Of a stretch of DNA of 64,000 nt, positions 1 to 5,998 are shown in pieces. The stretch lies in assembly GCA_020848545.1 (NCBI GenBank), contig JADLHZ010000044.1, forward strand, positions 248,001 to 312,000, written 5' to 3'. Origin of the DNA: Deltaproteobacteria bacterium. Lineage in GTDB: Bacteria; Myxococcota; JADLHZ01. Positions within the stretch are counted from its first letter, which is position 1, and every line of letters starts with the position of its first letter. The notes below the pieces were generated by a model. The model saw only the letters and a list, made by a program, of their open reading frames with translations. It was not told the origin of the DNA and made no database searches. The translations under genes were made by a program, and so were the position numbers.

Positions 1-1
1 T

Positions 2-1582
2 CCTTCCTTCGGCAACGACGAGGCGCGCTATTCGTTGGCCGAAGACTCTGCCCGGCAGCTCGCGGCCGAGGGCGTCACCGATCCGAAGGCGCTGCGCGAC
101 GGCGTCCTGCTTTGCGATCGCTTCTTGACGCGCGATACGCATTCGCTCGGCTACCTGACGCACGCCGGCCTGAAGCTCTCGACGCTGACCAAGGACAACT
201 TCGTCGCCGAGGTCGCGAAGGCCATCGCGGCCCATCTCGCGCACGATCCGTCCTGGGGCCCGGTCGAGAGCGTGCGCATCGTCAACGGCGTGCATGATCT
301 GCAGGGACAAGCGCCCGTTGCTGGCTCAGGGGGTGACTCGCACCGCGAAGGGATCATCAAGGCGCTCGGCGATCGCGAGATCTTGGCGATGATGGCCGGC
401 GATCGCGGCGAGATGTACAACTCGACCTATCGCAAGCTCTACGCCGAGTGCGTGCGACGGGCGCCCGAGGGCGACGTGGGGGCATGGCTGCGCACGCAGG
501 ATCCGACGCTCATGCGCGGCTTGCTCGCGAGCTTCGCGCGCTTCCGCCAACTCGACGCTGTCATGCAAGGCGGTGATCTCTTCGTCGACATGCTGATCAC
601 TGGGGCTTCGGGCAGCGACGCCCCCCGCCTGGCGCCGGTGCTCTCCGAGATGCTCGTCAAAGGCACGCCCGAGGTGCGGGAGAAGCTTCGCAAGGCGCTC
701 TTCGACCTGCTCGACCTGGACGTCGGCGCTCCCGGTCGGGCGACCGCCGGGCTCGCCCTGCGCGCGGCCTACGATCGCGGCGCCAGCTTCGGCGAAGACT
801 ACGACCTCTACGGCAAGCGCTTGCCGGCGATCCCGAAGGCGACGGTGCCGGTCGACGAGATGCTCGCCGACGGAGCCGTGACGACGGTGCAGTTCCTGAC
901 CACGAATCAAGGCGGCGCCGATCCGAAGGGCATGGCCAACTACTACATCGCGCACGGCTTCGTAGAGACCACCGTGGCGCGCAAGGTCGGCCGCGTCGTC
1001 GAGAAGGATCTTGGCAACGGCGTCATGATCTCCATGGTCGAGAGCGTCGACGTGCCGGCGGCCAAGGTGCCGTTCGGCTTGAACCCGAAGCAGACGAAGG
1101 TGTTCGAGAAGGTCGTCAACGGGGTGACGCTGCGCATGGTGATCACGACGGACATGACGCGCGATCGCAAAGCGGTCATCGACGATCCGGGCGTGGACAT
1201 GGTCACACACCGCGGACATCTCTACGACTTCGACAAGACCTTCCCGGCGATCGACAACCCGACGCGGAGCAAGCGCAGAAAGTTCCTGTTCGGTGGCTCG
1301 TGCTCGTCTTACAGCGACATGACGAGCGAGGGCTTTCAGCGCTCGTACGGCGAGCACCTCTTGTTCTCCGACTCGGACACCGGCCAAGCGGCGGTCAACA
1401 ATCCGTTCATCTTGGACGTGATGAAGGGCGTCGCAGCGGGCAAGCGCCAGATTTCGTCGTACGGCCTCGAGCGCTACGTGGACAAGCACGGCATCGTCCT
1501 CGCCGATGCGCCGGAGATGCAGCTCGAAGCCTATGCCTACACGCTCCGCGACTTCGTTTTGGATCCGTCCAAAAACCGATGA
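2..1582 (+). CDS. Unrecognised protein, 5'-truncated by window edge; possible clan CD-like cysteine peptidase fold
   Basis: The reading frame is open from base 2, so the true start lies upstream; a TTG at 35 is only an internal possibility. No family is recognised outright. In the C-terminal third a hydrophobic strand leads into THRGH (His codon at 1208) and a second hydrophobic strand leads into FLFGGSCSS (Cys codon at 1301). This His-Gly/spacer/Gly-x-Cys layout resembles the dyad of clan CD peptidases (caspase, clostripain, gingipain families). That is inference from spacing only. The N-terminal part is helical and featureless. The stop overlaps the next start (ATGA at 1579-1582), so it is translationally coupled to the secreted metallopeptidase gene, which hints at a shared proteolytic or export-related role. 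Confidence 0.6.
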   Translation, partial: PSFGNDEARYSLAEDSARQLAAEGVTDPKALRDGVLLCDRFLTRDTHSLGYLTHAGLKLSTLTKDNFVAEVAKAIAAHLAHDPSWGPVESVRIVNGVHDLQGQAPVAGSGGDSHREGIIKALGDREILAMMAGDRGEMYNSTYRKLYAECVRRAPEGDVGAWLRTQDPTLMRGLLASFARFRQLDAVMQGGDLFVDMLITGASGSDAPRLAPVLSEMLVKGTPEVREKLRKALFDLLDLDVGAPGRATAGLALRAAYDRGASFGEDYDLYGKRLPAIPKATVPVDEMLADGAVTTVQFLTTNQGGADPKGMANYYIAHGFVETTVARKVGRVVEKDLGNGVMISMVESVDVPAAKVPFGLNPKQTKVFEKVVNGVTLRMVITTDMTRDRKAVIDDPGVDMVTHRGHLYDFDKTFPAIDNPTRSKRRKFLFGGSCSSYSDMTSEGFQRSYGEHLLFSDSDTGQAAVNNPFILDVMKGVAAGKRQISSYGLERYVDKHGIVLADAPEMQLEAYAYTLRDFVLDPSKNR

Positions 1583-3084
1583 CCCTTCGATTTCGCCGTC
1601 GACAATCGCTTAGCCCGAGTGTATGCGCTCGCCCTGTGGTGAGGGCGCTCTCCTTTATATGTCTGTCGGTGTTGGCGACAGGCGTGGCCGACGCGGCTTG
1701 CCTCACGCCGCTGCGCCGCCAAGCGCGGCCGATCGCTTCGGGTCGCCCGGCGTTCTCGATCACGGTCGCGTCGGCGACGGGCTTGCCCTTCGTCGTCCAT
1801 GGCCCCGCGGGCTCGACGGCGACGCTCAACAAGATCCGCGACGCCGCCGACGCCGCTTGGCAGGCCGAGATCGTTCAAGGCGGCTGGCCGGCGCCGCCGC
1901 CCGACAACAACGGCGGCGACAACAAGTTCGACATCTACATCGATCCCTCGCTCGGAGAGGGCGAAGCGTTCGTCGATGAAGACGGCAACGTCACGAGCAC
2001 CGCGTGGAATGATCGCATGAGCTTCATGTGCCTGCCGCCGACCTTCGCGGACGACGCCGAGCTGAAGTCGCTCGTCTCGCACGAGCTCAACCACGCGTCG
2101 CAGTACGCCCTCGACGGCATCGAGGACGACGCGTTCTTCGAGCAGACCGCGACGCTCGTCGAGAAGCTCGTCGGTAAAGACGTCGAGACCTACAGCAGTG
2201 GCATCGAGGATTTTCAAAAGAACCCGGCGCGCGCGCTCGACTTCTTCGGCGACGATCTCTTCCAGTACGGCGGCGCCTTGTGGCTCATGTTCCTGACCGA
2301 AGCGCTCGACGACGGCAGCGACAAGCTCGCGAAGCGCTTGTGGGTCGACGGCAAAGAGAACGGGCAAACGAACGAGCCGGACTTTCTCGATGTGTTGCCG
2401 GCGATCCTGCACGACAAGGGCTGGACCACGGCGCGCTTCTTCGCCACCTTCGCGATCTGGCGCTACTTCACCGGCGCGCGCGATGACGGCGCGCACTTCG
2501 AAGAGGGCGGCCTGTGGGGCAGCGGGTCGCTCGTCCCGGTGGGCAAGAAGGCGTGGACGAAGGGCGCGGCGGTGCTCGACGCGTCGCTGTCGCCGCTCGG
2601 CATTGCGCTCTTCGAGCTGCCAGCGGCCGGGCCGATCGCCTGGACCGCAGCCAACGCCGACGGCGTCGTGGCGGCGCAGGCGATCGACGCAGCGGGGAAG
2701 GCCGTCGGCGACGTGCTGATCGCGGACGGCGCGAGCGGGACCTTCGCGATCGATGGCAAAGCGAAGAGCGTGGTCGTCGCGTTGACGCGCGTCGATGAGA
2801 CGTATGATCCGGATGATGATGCGTGGGACGCGGTGAAGATCACCGTGAAGCTCACGGTTGGGGAAACGCCAAAGACCGGCGATGTCGATGTCGATGGCGA
2901 TGGCGATGGCGATGGCGATGGCGAAGCGACGGCAACACCGGCGCCAGTGAAGCCCGCGGTTGCCGAGCCTACCGCCACGTCGACGACGAAGAACGGTTGC
3001 AACACGAACGGCACGGCGCTCGCGTGGCCTTTTGTGATCCTCGTGGCGCTGCGCCTCAGACGCACCCGGACAGAGCGCTCGTAA
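1579..3084 (+). CDS. Secreted HExxH metallopeptidase-like protein with MYXO-CTERM-like tail
   Basis: The 501-residue product starts at the ATG overlapping the previous stop. It opens with an Arg-rich signal peptide ending VADA-A. HELNH at residues 168-172 is a zinc HExxH motif in a hydrophobic helix, followed by an acidic helix (FFEQTATLVEKLV) that may give the third ligand. After a beta-rich region comes a low-complexity Asp-Val/Asp-Gly run and an Ala/Pro/Thr linker. The tail is Gly-Cys, a hydrophobic segment, then an Arg cluster (LRLRRTRTERS). This tripartite tail matches the idea of MYXO-CTERM surface sorting, in which the protein is processed at the Cys, but it has a single Cys. I infer a surface-displayed gluzincin-like peptidase; the substrate is unknown. 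Confidence 0.7.
   Translation: MTLRFRRRQSLSPSVCARPVVRALSFICLSVLATGVADAACLTPLRRQARPIASGRPAFSITVASATGLPFVVHGPAGSTATLNKIRDAADAAWQAEIVQGGWPAPPPDNNGGDNKFDIYIDPSLGEGEAFVDEDGNVTSTAWNDRMSFMCLPPTFADDAELKSLVSHELNHASQYALDGIEDDAFFEQTATLVEKLVGKDVETYSSGIEDFQKNPARALDFFGDDLFQYGGALWLMFLTEALDDGSDKLAKRLWVDGKENGQTNEPDFLDVLPAILHDKGWTTARFFATFAIWRYFTGARDDGAHFEEGGLWGSGSLVPVGKKAWTKGAAVLDASLSPLGIALFELPAAGPIAWTAANADGVVAAQAIDAAGKAVGDVLIADGASGTFAIDGKAKSVVVALTRVDETYDPDDDAWDAVKITVKLTVGETPKTGDVDVDGDGDGDGDGEATATPAPVKPAVAEPTATSTTKNGCNTNGTALAWPFVILVALRLRRTRTERS
2881..2922 (+). repeat. In-frame hexanucleotide tandem repeat
   Basis: Two GATGTC units are followed by five GATGGC units, coding an Asp-Val/Asp-Gly run in the linker before the C-terminal anchor of the metallopeptidase. 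Slipped-strand changes would alter linker length in multiples of two residues without a frameshift. Confidence 0.85.
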
Positions 3085-3166: not shown

Positions 3167-3784
3167 TTGCTCTTTCGTAGCCGCCCAGAGCTCCTCGTGC
3201 CCTTTCGTCACGGCGACCGCGCCGCGTTGGAGGCGGTGTATCGCCACTACGTGCGCTTGGTCGAAACCGTCGTGACGCAGGGGACCTACGTCGCCGGCAG
3301 CCGCGTCTTCATCGGCGACGTCGAGCAGCGAAAGGACCTTTTGCAAGACATCTTCGCGCGGGCGTTCTCCGAGCGGGCGCGCCTCGGCTTCGACGGCCTG
3401 CGCGAGTATCGCCCGTACCTGCTCACCCTCGCGCGCAACGTCATGATCGACTGGGCGCGCAAGCGAAAAGAGACGCTGCCGGGGGACATCGATGCCCTCG
3501 TCGAGCAGTACGCGCCTGCCGACGCCCCGGTGGCTGAGATGCCGCCCTGGTCCGACCCGGCGACCATGCAGCTCGTCGAGCGCTATTTGCAGGGCCTGAC
3601 GGAGCCGACGCGGCGCTTACACGCGCTTCGCTACGAACAGGGCTTGTCACAAGACGACGCCGCCCGCACGCTAGGATTGAGCCGTCAGAACGTGCGGACG
3701 CTCGAGCAGAAGCTGCGCCAAGGGCTCGCCGATGCTTTGGGTGCAGCCGCTGCCAACCAAGCGCGGGCGAAGGCCGTAGGGTGA
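3167..3784 (+). CDS. ECF-type RNA polymerase sigma factor
   Basis: The 205-residue protein has the two-domain sigma-70 group 4 layout. Region 2 spans about residues 15-95, with the core-binding segment DLLQDIFARAFSE and an RPYLLTLARNVMIDWARKR helix. Region 4 spans about 125-190, with the helix-turn-helix EGLSQDDAARTLGLSRQNV. It should direct polymerase to a small regulon. The start is the TTG at 3167; an ATT at 3155 is the only nearby alternative in frame. It lies 6 bp upstream of a single-span membrane protein, which fits a cognate anti-sigma factor, and the caspase-like gene follows directly, so the three probably form one operon. No convincing ECF -35/-10 pair was found upstream. Confidence 0.85.
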   Translation: MLFRSRPELLVPFRHGDRAALEAVYRHYVRLVETVVTQGTYVAGSRVFIGDVEQRKDLLQDIFARAFSERARLGFDGLREYRPYLLTLARNVMIDWARKRKETLPGDIDALVEQYAPADAPVAEMPPWSDPATMQLVERYLQGLTEPTRRLHALRYEQGLSQDDAARTLGLSRQNVRTLEQKLRQGLADALGAAAANQARAKAVG

Positions 3785-3790
3785 GATGAA

Positions 3791-4417
3791 ATGAACAAGT
3801 ACGAACAGCAGCTCGACCGAATGCTCGCCCGCGGTCGCCTGTCGCCGGACGAGATCGACACGGTGCTCGCGCGGGCGTTGACCAAGCAGGAGACCGAGGC
3901 CGTCGCTGGGGCCGAAAAGCCGAAGGCCGGCTGGCGGTGGGCGCTCGTGCCGGCGCTGTCGTTCGGGGTCGTCGCGTCCCTGTTCTTGGTCCTCGCGAAC
4001 CCGTTTTCACCCCCGGTGTCCGGTGTGGGCGGCGAGTTTCGCGCCCGTGGCCAGAACAAGGTGACGCTCGCGGCCGAGTGCGCCGCGCCGTGCACGGCCG
4101 GCAGCGCGCTCGTGTTTCGCGCCTCGCCGCACGCCCAGACGGGCTACTTGGCGGCCTACGCGGCCAGCGGCGACGCCCGCATCTGGTACTACCCGAGCGC
4201 AGAAGTCCCGTCGCCGGAGCTCGCCCCGAGCACCCGCGACGAGGCGCTCTCGCAGGGCGCCGTCATCGGCCCTGAGCACGCACTCGGCCGCTACACCGTG
4301 CGCCTGTACTTGCTCAGCGAACGCTTGGATCGCGCCGCGATCACCGCGCTTGGTACCGACGACCCGCGCGTGCTCGGCTATACCGAAGCGGCGATCACTG
4401 TGGAGGAGCGTCGCTGA
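3791..4417 (+). CDS. Single-span membrane protein, putative anti-sigma factor
   Basis: The 208-residue protein has an N-terminal cytoplasmic helical stretch of about 47 residues and one transmembrane segment (about 51-69). Its periplasmic domain of about 135 residues contains a close Cys pair (ECAAPC). The N-terminal stretch lacks the His/Cys pattern of a zinc anti-sigma domain. Position between an ECF sigma gene (6 bp gap) and a caspase-like gene (0 bp gap), plus topology, support an anti-sigma or sensor role. The beta-rich outer domain resembles the DUF4384-like surface domains often seen with caspase-like proteins, but I cannot confirm that. The function is inferred from context. Confidence 0.6.
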   Translation: MNKYEQQLDRMLARGRLSPDEIDTVLARALTKQETEAVAGAEKPKAGWRWALVPALSFGVVASLFLVLANPFSPPVSGVGGEFRARGQNKVTLAAECAAPCTAGSALVFRASPHAQTGYLAAYAASGDARIWYYPSAEVPSPELAPSTRDEALSQGAVIGPEHALGRYTVRLYLLSERLDRAAITALGTDDPRVLGYTEAAITVEERR

Positions 4418-5998
4418 GTGCTCGCGTCCTGCCTGCTCATGGCTTCGCTTTCGACGGCCGCGATCGAGCCGGCGCCGACGACCTACGTCATCGCGATCGG
4501 CAACAACGCGGTGCCGCAAGACACCCGCGAGCAGTTGGAGACGCTGGCGTTCTCCGACGACGACGCGATCTCGTTCGCCGAGCTGTCTGAGCACTTCACG
4601 AACGACGTGACCCTGCTGGCCGAGCTCGATTTGCCGAGCCAGCGCCGCTACGGCAAGTGGCTCACTCGCGCGCGCCAGCCGACGCTCGCCGAGCTCGAGC
4701 GCGCGGTCCAACGGATCGCCATGCGCATCCAGAACACCGCCGACGCGGACGCGACGGTGATCGTGTTCTTCAGCGGCCACGGAAGCACCGCCAAAGACGG
4801 CGAGCCCTTCCTCGCGCTCGCCGATGCGTCGCTCACGCGAGCGCGGCTTTACGAACGCGTGCTCGCGCCTTTGCAACGCGCCCGGGCCGTGCACTTGCTG
4901 GTCGACGCGTGCAACGCCGAGTCGGTCGTGCGCCCGCGCGGCGGCAGCGGCCACAAGGTGCGCGATGTCGACGGCCAGCCGCGCACCTTCGCGCACAAGG
5001 AGCTCGATCGCGCGCTCTCGGGCACGACCCTCGCGCGTTTTCCGAACACCGGCGCCATCGTCGCGACGACGGCCGGCCGCTCCGCGCACGAATGGACGCG
5101 GTACGAGCGCGGCGTCTTCACCCACGAGCTGCTCTCCGGCATGCGCGGCGCCGCCGACGTCAACGGCGACCTGCGCGTCGAGTACAGCGAGCTTCACGCG
5201 TTCCTCTCCGCGGCCAACCGCGAGATCGACGATCCAAAGGCGAAGGTGGAGGTCGTCGTCGAGCCGCCGCGCAACAACGTGCGGGCGCCGCTCATCGATC
5301 TCTCGCGCCTGGTGAACGTCGCCTGGCTCGACGGCGACGCCGCCGCCGCGTGGGGCCACTTCTTCTTGGAGGATGGCCGCGGCGTGCGCGTCGCCGACGC
5401 TCACTTGGAGCAGCGCGCGCGCTTTCGCATGGCGCTGCCGATCGATTCGCCCGTGTTCATTCGAAACGCCGGCGGCGAGGTGCTCGTGCAGGCGAAGGCC
5501 GGCGAGACGATCAACGCCGGCGACTTGCGCTTCAGCCAAGGCACGACGAAGGCGCGCGGCGCCGTCGCGTTCGAGCTTCAGCGCGGGTTGTTCGCGGCGG
5601 CGTACGGCCCGACCTACTACCGTGGCTTCGTCGACGCGAAGGGCGACGTGCCCGTGAGCTTCGAAGTGAACGCCGCGCTCACGCCGCCGGCGAAGGCCGA
5701 ACGGTCGAAGGCGCCGGCCGTCGCGCTCTGGGCGATCGCTGGCGGCGCCACGGTCGCGGCCGCGATCCTCGGCGGGCTCGCGCTCGCGGCAGCCGAAGCG
5801 TACAACCGCACGGATCTGCAGGCGCCGGCAATGCAAGCGCGCGATCGCTACAACGCGATGATGATCGGCTTCTACACGACGGTGCCGGTGGCCGCCGCCG
5901 CGGCGATCGTCGGCTTCGCGGTGTATCCCTGGAAAGCGTCGGTCGCCATCACTCCGACCGCGACCGGCGTCAGCGCGAGCGTCGTCGGGCGCTTCTAG
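4418..5998 (+). CDS. Caspase-family (C14-like) peptidase with C-terminal membrane segments
   Basis: The 526-residue protein starts at a GTG immediately after the preceding stop. An N-terminal hydrophobic stretch (MLASCLLMASLSTAA) looks like a signal peptide or anchor. The caspase-hemoglobinase fold covers about residues 20-270: strand IAIGNN, catalytic His121 in VIVFFSGHG, and catalytic Cys165 in LLVDACN, with the expected spacing and hydrophobic strands. A less conserved region follows. Two hydrophobic segments at about 435-460 and 484-508 should place the C-terminus in the membrane. Bacterial caspase-like enzymes usually cleave after basic residues; the substrate here is unknown. Position behind an ECF sigma factor and its likely anti-sigma suggests stress-triggered proteolysis. 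Catalysis is well supported, the pathway is not. Confidence 0.8.
   Translation: MLASCLLMASLSTAAIEPAPTTYVIAIGNNAVPQDTREQLETLAFSDDDAISFAELSEHFTNDVTLLAELDLPSQRRYGKWLTRARQPTLAELERAVQRIAMRIQNTADADATVIVFFSGHGSTAKDGEPFLALADASLTRARLYERVLAPLQRARAVHLLVDACNAESVVRPRGGSGHKVRDVDGQPRTFAHKELDRALSGTTLARFPNTGAIVATTAGRSAHEWTRYERGVFTHELLSGMRGAADVNGDLRVEYSELHAFLSAANREIDDPKAKVEVVVEPPRNNVRAPLIDLSRLVNVAWLDGDAAAAWGHFFLEDGRGVRVADAHLEQRARFRMALPIDSPVFIRNAGGEVLVQAKAGETINAGDLRFSQGTTKARGAVAFELQRGLFAAAYGPTYYRGFVDAKGDVPVSFEVNAALTPPAKAERSKAPAVALWAIAGGATVAAAILGGLALAAAEAYNRTDLQAPAMQARDRYNAMMIGFYTTVPVAAAAAIVGFAVYPWKASVAITPTATGVSASVVGRF

Follow-up and report, generated by a model that had tools for sequence, protein, structure and literature searches.

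The locus

The window analysed here is a 64,000-nucleotide stretch of a myxococcotal genome, in which three open reading frames on the plus strand were verified at 3167-3784, 3791-4417 and 4418-5998. The gaps between them are 6 and 0 bp, in agreement with the compact operon described in an earlier reading of this DNA (the sequence-only reading). The genes and their features are the following.

3167..3784, + strand: ECF sigma factor, 205 aa, TTG start (TIGR02937 2.6e-18, Sigma70_r2, Sigma70_r4)
3791..4417, + strand: membrane anti-sigma factor, 208 aa (zf-HC2, antisigma and DUF4384 matches in same-slot homologues, one transmembrane segment, AlphaFold model)
3941..3997, + strand: anti-sigma transmembrane segment, residues 51-69 (hydropathy 2.37)
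4037..4051, + strand: FRARG motif, residues 83-87, candidate cleavage after R86 (codon 4046-4048; conservation)
4064..4405, + strand: anti-sigma Ig/FN3-like beta-sandwich, residues 92-205, predicted periplasmic (AlphaFold, weak Foldseek matches)
4418..5998, + strand: exported caspase-family (C14) peptidase, 526 aa, GTG start abutting the anti-sigma stop (PF00656 2.3e-9)
4418..4462, + strand: caspase signal peptide, residues ~1-15, weak in the window copy and clear in relatives
4778..4780, + strand: catalytic His121 (H in 70/70 homologues)
4904..4912, + strand: D163-A164-C165, catalytic Cys with the metacaspase-type Asp two residues before it (C in 70/70, D163 invariant)
5156..5191, + strand: EF-hand-like loop D247-x-N249-x-D251...E258 in the caspase domain (profile match to EF-hand proteins)
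5711..5923, + strand: caspase C-terminal helical hairpin, residues 432-502, probable membrane anchor (two hydrophobic segments, AlphaFold helices)

The first gene had been read as an ECF sigma factor, and its match to TIGR02937 (sigma70-ECF) lies above the cut-off, with sigma2 and sigma4 as its only sigma regions, as defines ECF factors. Its TTG start is backed by alignment, relatives beginning within one or two residues of it.

The window's middle protein matches no curated family above cut-off. It has one hydrophobic segment and lacks the HxxxCxxC motif of the ZAS subgroup, as had been noticed before, and its branch is likewise without the zinc motif; anti-sigma factors without zinc are known. 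Homologues in the same slot, when scanned singly, carry the zf-HC2 zinc anti-sigma motif (8/28), NCBIfam antisigma matches (10/28) or DUF4384 (4/28), and because of the zf-HC2 and antisigma matches we conclude that the middle gene encodes an anti-sigma factor, predicted to bind and inhibit its sigma. The predicted architecture is that of a membrane anti-sigma: a cytoplasmic N-terminal domain, one transmembrane segment, an extracytoplasmic domain, and a gene adjoining that of its sigma factor. In the AlphaFold model, cytoplasmic helices (3-13 and 19-40) are followed by the transmembrane helix (~51-72), a low-confidence stretch (about 70-91) and a beta-sandwich (92-205) with pLDDT mostly above 80-90, for which Foldseek returned weak Ig/FN3-like fold matches, none at E<=0.001. 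The predicted topology has the N-terminus inside, which leaves the C-terminal Ig-like domain outside.

The caspase and its predicted compartment

The third protein matches Peptidase_C14 (PF00656) above the cut-off, and its nearest solved folds by Foldseek are the metacaspases 7qp1 and 8a53 (best E 2e-6). The catalytic pair named by the sequence-only reading is correctly numbered, and both residues are kept in 70/70 family members; with the caspase fold and His-Cys dyad of peptidase C14 in place, the enzyme is apparently intact. D163 and D48 are invariant in the family and, as in metacaspases, fit a basic P1 residue (Arg/Lys). Orthocaspases cut after basic residues, according to PMC6426788.

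Members of the caspase family begin with typical Sec signal peptides. That of the window copy is weak, with a hydrophobic core and an A-A end and no charged residue before the core. Membrane segments had been proposed at both ends of the protein; the N-terminal one reads as a Sec signal peptide and no anchor, and the C-terminal one holds as a predicted helical hairpin (AlphaFold helices 432-464 and 468-502), whose flanking charges do not clearly favour the proposed orientation. The hairpin is common but not universal, since the examined Myxococcaceae caspases that are divergently encoded end before it.

With a Sec signal peptide on the caspases and an external location predicted for the Ig-like domain, the two are predicted to meet in the periplasm. 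A topology that separated the caspase domain from the anti-sigma C-terminal region had been named as grounds against a proteolytic link between them; the predictions place both in the same compartment.

EF-hand Pfam matches occur in 7/33 caspase members and D247 and E258 are invariant, so that calcium dependence is plausible, judging from this EF-hand-like loop. Two other ideas about the caspases were dropped: the single in-frame TGA reported for Myxococcaceae caspases, considered as selenocysteine, is the natural stop in the two clean translations, and a PADLOC match considered as a sign of anti-phage defence is to a generic caspase only.

A linked and co-diversifying triad

A query with the caspase only against 97 related genomes found relatives in 67. 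Across about 77 neighbourhoods the same order recurs, with a sigma factor, a gene for a protein of 200-315 aa with one transmembrane segment, and a caspase, the last two mostly overlapping by 4 bases. When contigs of GTDB genomes were scanned independently with a caspase alignment, 63 loci came up; apart from one labelled Comamonas, their records belong to myxobacteria, deltaproteobacteria, or unclassified bacteria or proteobacteria. That record (L180, Comamonas sp. KCTC 72670) holds a typical Myxococcus-like triad and likely comes from a mislabelled or contaminated assembly.

Where a caspase-found locus has at least 1.7 kb of upstream sequence (n=52), an ECF sigma gene lies upstream in 52/52 and a middle-gene homologue in 50/52. 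A scripted count on the same 52 loci gave 50 and 46, respectively; four of its six misses are caspases truncated at contig ends, for which sigma and anti-sigma are both present. In L152, apparently the same as L087, the middle slot holds an unrecognised 256-aa gene with one transmembrane segment. The linkage also appears in the reverse direction: in genomes picked for having few caspases, 12 of the 16 full-length middle-gene matches adjoin a C14 gene, and five genomes without C14 yielded middle-gene matches that are almost only partial and N-terminal. The linkage of sigma, anti-sigma and caspase is not due to chance. It is conserved across the phylum, which answers the search for co-occurrence that the sequence-only reading had proposed and removes an objection, lack of linkage in relatives, that it had anticipated.

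Myxobacteria and their relatives carry several copies of the triad in each genome. The source genome has about 18 C14 proteins, and caspases with both partners are found in the window triad, C44 near 46 kb, C25, C90 and C33; the C56 caspase has a sigma gene upstream. Incomplete triads are also present, with anti-sigma and caspase but no adjacent sigma on C118 (L033), a lone caspase on C26 (L099), and a sigma-anti-sigma pair without caspase on C140 (L234).

Among 51 triads from 18 genomes, each with at least two triads, pairwise distances are correlated, with a rho of 0.54 for sigma against caspase, 0.39 for anti-sigma against caspase and 0.31 for sigma against anti-sigma. When partners were permuted within genomes, which keeps species relatedness, the observed rho was reached in 0/1000 permutations for each pair. 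This indicates, without proving contact, that the three genes form cognate units that duplicate and diverge together.

Several variants of the layout were seen. A second triad class (L233, L235, L236, L238, L240-L249), largely missed by the first searches, combines a zinc anti-sigma, whose linker motif resembles RxKGG, with a caspase of ~530 aa. In a Myxococcaceae variant (L083, L085, L086, L090, L092) the sigma-anti-sigma pair is divergent from the caspase and the anti-sigma linker retains R-S/G; in L037, L039, L042, L047 and L117 about 1 kb or more separates sigma from anti-sigma.

Upstream of the window triad, the two proteins that had been taken to form a proteolytic neighbourhood both exist. 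Window positions 1-1582 encode a 515-aa part of a 714-aa protein (full gene L036:3439-5583, starting upstream of the window) that has HRGH...GGSCSS in its C-terminal part and is possibly clan CD-like; the 515-aa part has no Pfam match. Overlapping it by a few bases, 1576-3084 encodes a secreted HExxH protein that matches the MXAN_6640 metalloprotease family at 7.9e-30, its 104.6 bits falling short of the 140-bit cut-off. No homologue of either protein occurs in ~160 other neighbourhoods, and we rejected them as members of the module.

Possible autoregulation in Myxococcaceae

Orthologous triads in Myxococcaceae share an ECF-like promoter footprint, CGACC(C)-N17..20-CGTAT with a diverged spacer, which in most cases lies 130-150 bp ahead of the sigma reference point. 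Its position upstream of the sigma genes suggests that these triads are autoregulated. The footprint was not seen at the window copy, for which there is no close relative to support footprinting. Genome-wide matches to CGACCC-N16..18-CGTAT, a motif derived from another branch, are few and barely above a reversed control, and for this reason we claim no regulon. A pooled motif over all triads (TTCC-N16-CGTC) was discarded, as it falls around the start codon of sigma in related sequences and probably reflects coding sequence.

A conserved basic residue in the anti-sigma linker

Directly after the transmembrane segment, the anti-sigmas bear the motif [F/W/L]xx[R/K][G/S], which is FRARG in the window copy, ending in R86-G87. 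Among 85 dereplicated triads the R86 position is R or K in 84 and the G87 position G or S in 84, in a family with a mean column identity of about 21%; the one exception (L192) falls in masked, broken sequence. In divergently arranged anti-sigmas the R is retained and the next residue is S, G or K, and the basic motif is present in 10/10 further caspase-linked homologues from caspase-poor genomes. A few anti-sigmas, L098 among them, have the motif farther from the membrane. R86-G87 sits in a low-confidence, predicted-disordered linker in the AlphaFold model, and the basic residue matches the basic P1 preference of orthocaspases. These features make it a candidate caspase cleavage site, and the predicted compartments of caspase and linker agree, as a site-1 cut would require.

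The motif appears to track the presence of the caspase. Caspase-less full-length homologues of one family, f13 (L297, L299, L313), are without the basic motif, as is L232; this is suggestive, the motif-less set being small and partly of one lineage. Five homologues with no adjacent caspase (L032, L234, L237, L239, L250) keep R/K-G/S, so the motif may be structural or may be cut by a caspase encoded elsewhere. Such orphans would be expected if the operon were conserved without direct contact between caspase and anti-sigma and R-G were part of the Ig-like fold or a determinant of export or topology, which basic residues near membranes can affect. We regard this as very improbable, given that AlphaFold places R-G ahead of the first strand, in a disordered segment, and that R-G is missing from some domains that are clearly homologous but have no caspase.

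Contact could also serve the opposite purpose, with the periplasmic domain of the anti-sigma regulating the caspase: the R-G linker, as a docking site or a pseudosubstrate, would keep the protease inactive at the membrane, and another protease would make the site-1 cut. The same conserved contact would be expected and co-diversification fits. We consider this improbable, since one small protein would need two functions and there is no citable precedent in this caspase family.

The caspase may instead be an effector whose expression is all that sigma and anti-sigma control, degrading proteins of the envelope, of prey or of the cell itself as part of a stress or death response. Its gene is last in the operon and translationally coupled, the protein is exported (by predicted signal peptides), and some Myxococcaceae caspases are divergent from the sigma-anti-sigma pair and lack the C-terminal hairpin; earlier authors proposed a role in autolysis or programmed death (PMC3501461). 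An effector role leaves unexplained the near-invariant basic residue of the linker, its absence from the caspase-less f13 homologues, and the co-diversification of anti-sigma and caspase, to which coupling in one operon could contribute. On balance we find it rather unlikely.

A proposed model of anti-sigma cleavage by the co-encoded caspase

We favour, with a probability of roughly 0.58, a reading in which the anti-sigma receives its site-1 cut from the periplasmic orthocaspase encoded with it and an RseP-type step frees the sigma factor. The N-terminus of the anti-sigma would hold the ECF sigma in the cytoplasm, with its Ig-like domain in the periplasm, where the exported caspase would be anchored, in the window copy, by its C-terminal hairpin. 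Upon a signal, perhaps Ca2+, perhaps a ligand recognised by the Ig-like domain or by the beta domains of the caspase, the caspase would cut after the conserved Arg/Lys (R86) just outside the membrane. Intramembrane proteolysis of the RseP type would then release the sigma factor, which would turn on its own operon and other genes; the source genome has two strong M50 matches (PF02163) as site-2 candidates. The sequence-only reading had raised the peptidase as the releasing protease, and conserved linkage, agreeing compartments and a candidate site now favour this; the cleavage itself and where it falls, the release of sigma, the signal and the regulon are what we infer.

We see an even chance that this extends across Myxococcota, with expanded families of exported orthocaspases acting as dedicated, operon-encoded site-1 proteases for their cognate ECF anti-sigmas, each making its cut after a single conserved basic residue close to the outer side of the membrane, and with several insulated copies per cell.

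Relation to known systems

The gene pair was noted in 2012, when Asplund-Samuelsson et al. (PMC3501461) found that, of five metacaspases in M. xanthus, four share an operon with a sigma factor. The accessible passages also list such sigma-70/metacaspase operons in Anaeromyxobacter, Haliangium, Sorangium, Ralstonia and Fibrobacter and tentatively suggest autolysis; unlike the present reading, they do not call the middle gene an anti-sigma and give no linker site or release mechanism. In the accessible literature we found no mention of the anti-sigma identity, the export or the candidate cleavage site, although the supplement of the ECF reclassification may list this context.

The closest general parallel is RseA-DegS-RseP, in which a membrane anti-sigma with a periplasmic domain is cut outside and then inside the membrane. 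Its site-1 protease is of the DegS serine type, whereas the candidate here is a clan CD cysteine peptidase encoded in the same operon. In type III-E Craspase (PMC10028731), the caspase-like Csx29 cuts the anti-sigma Csx30 and so relieves its action on an ECF sigma (CASP-sigma), as proposed for the window triad, and Craspase structures are among the weak Foldseek matches of the window caspase. Craspase differs in being cytoplasmic, RNA-activated and of the CHAT family, with no membrane step. The window operon has no CRISPR genes, and its caspase, with a signal peptide and hairpin, matches PF00656 only, unlike the TPR-CHAT protease that accompanies Cas7-11.

Two further families place clan CD peptidases near ECF sigma factors. 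ECF54 (PMC8999054), with a CHAT/subtilase/carboxypeptidase context, is proposed to act without an anti-sigma, unlike the triad. In the EACC2-caspase systems (PMC8195603) the caspase beside the ECF sigma is paired with EACC2 and a DUF1822 partner, neither of which was found at the window locus; the window caspase scores 35.6 bits against NF047832 (caspase_w_EACC1), versus a cut-off of 140, and no EACC domain was found. Given the Csx29-Csx30 precedent, we rate the triad as likely new in part: regulated proteolysis of an ECF anti-sigma is of a known kind, and a co-encoded periplasmic orthocaspase as its site-1 protease would be a new variant.

To our knowledge, the role of most bacterial caspase homologues is unclear, and they are usually discussed in terms of cell death. 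If the proposed reading is true, an entire branch of bacterial caspases would gain a concrete signalling job through a conserved partner and one predicted cleavage residue, and the long-noted, unexplained sigma-metacaspase operon of M. xanthus would become directly testable by point mutation. It would also mean caspase-driven signalling across the membrane, in several insulated copies per cell.
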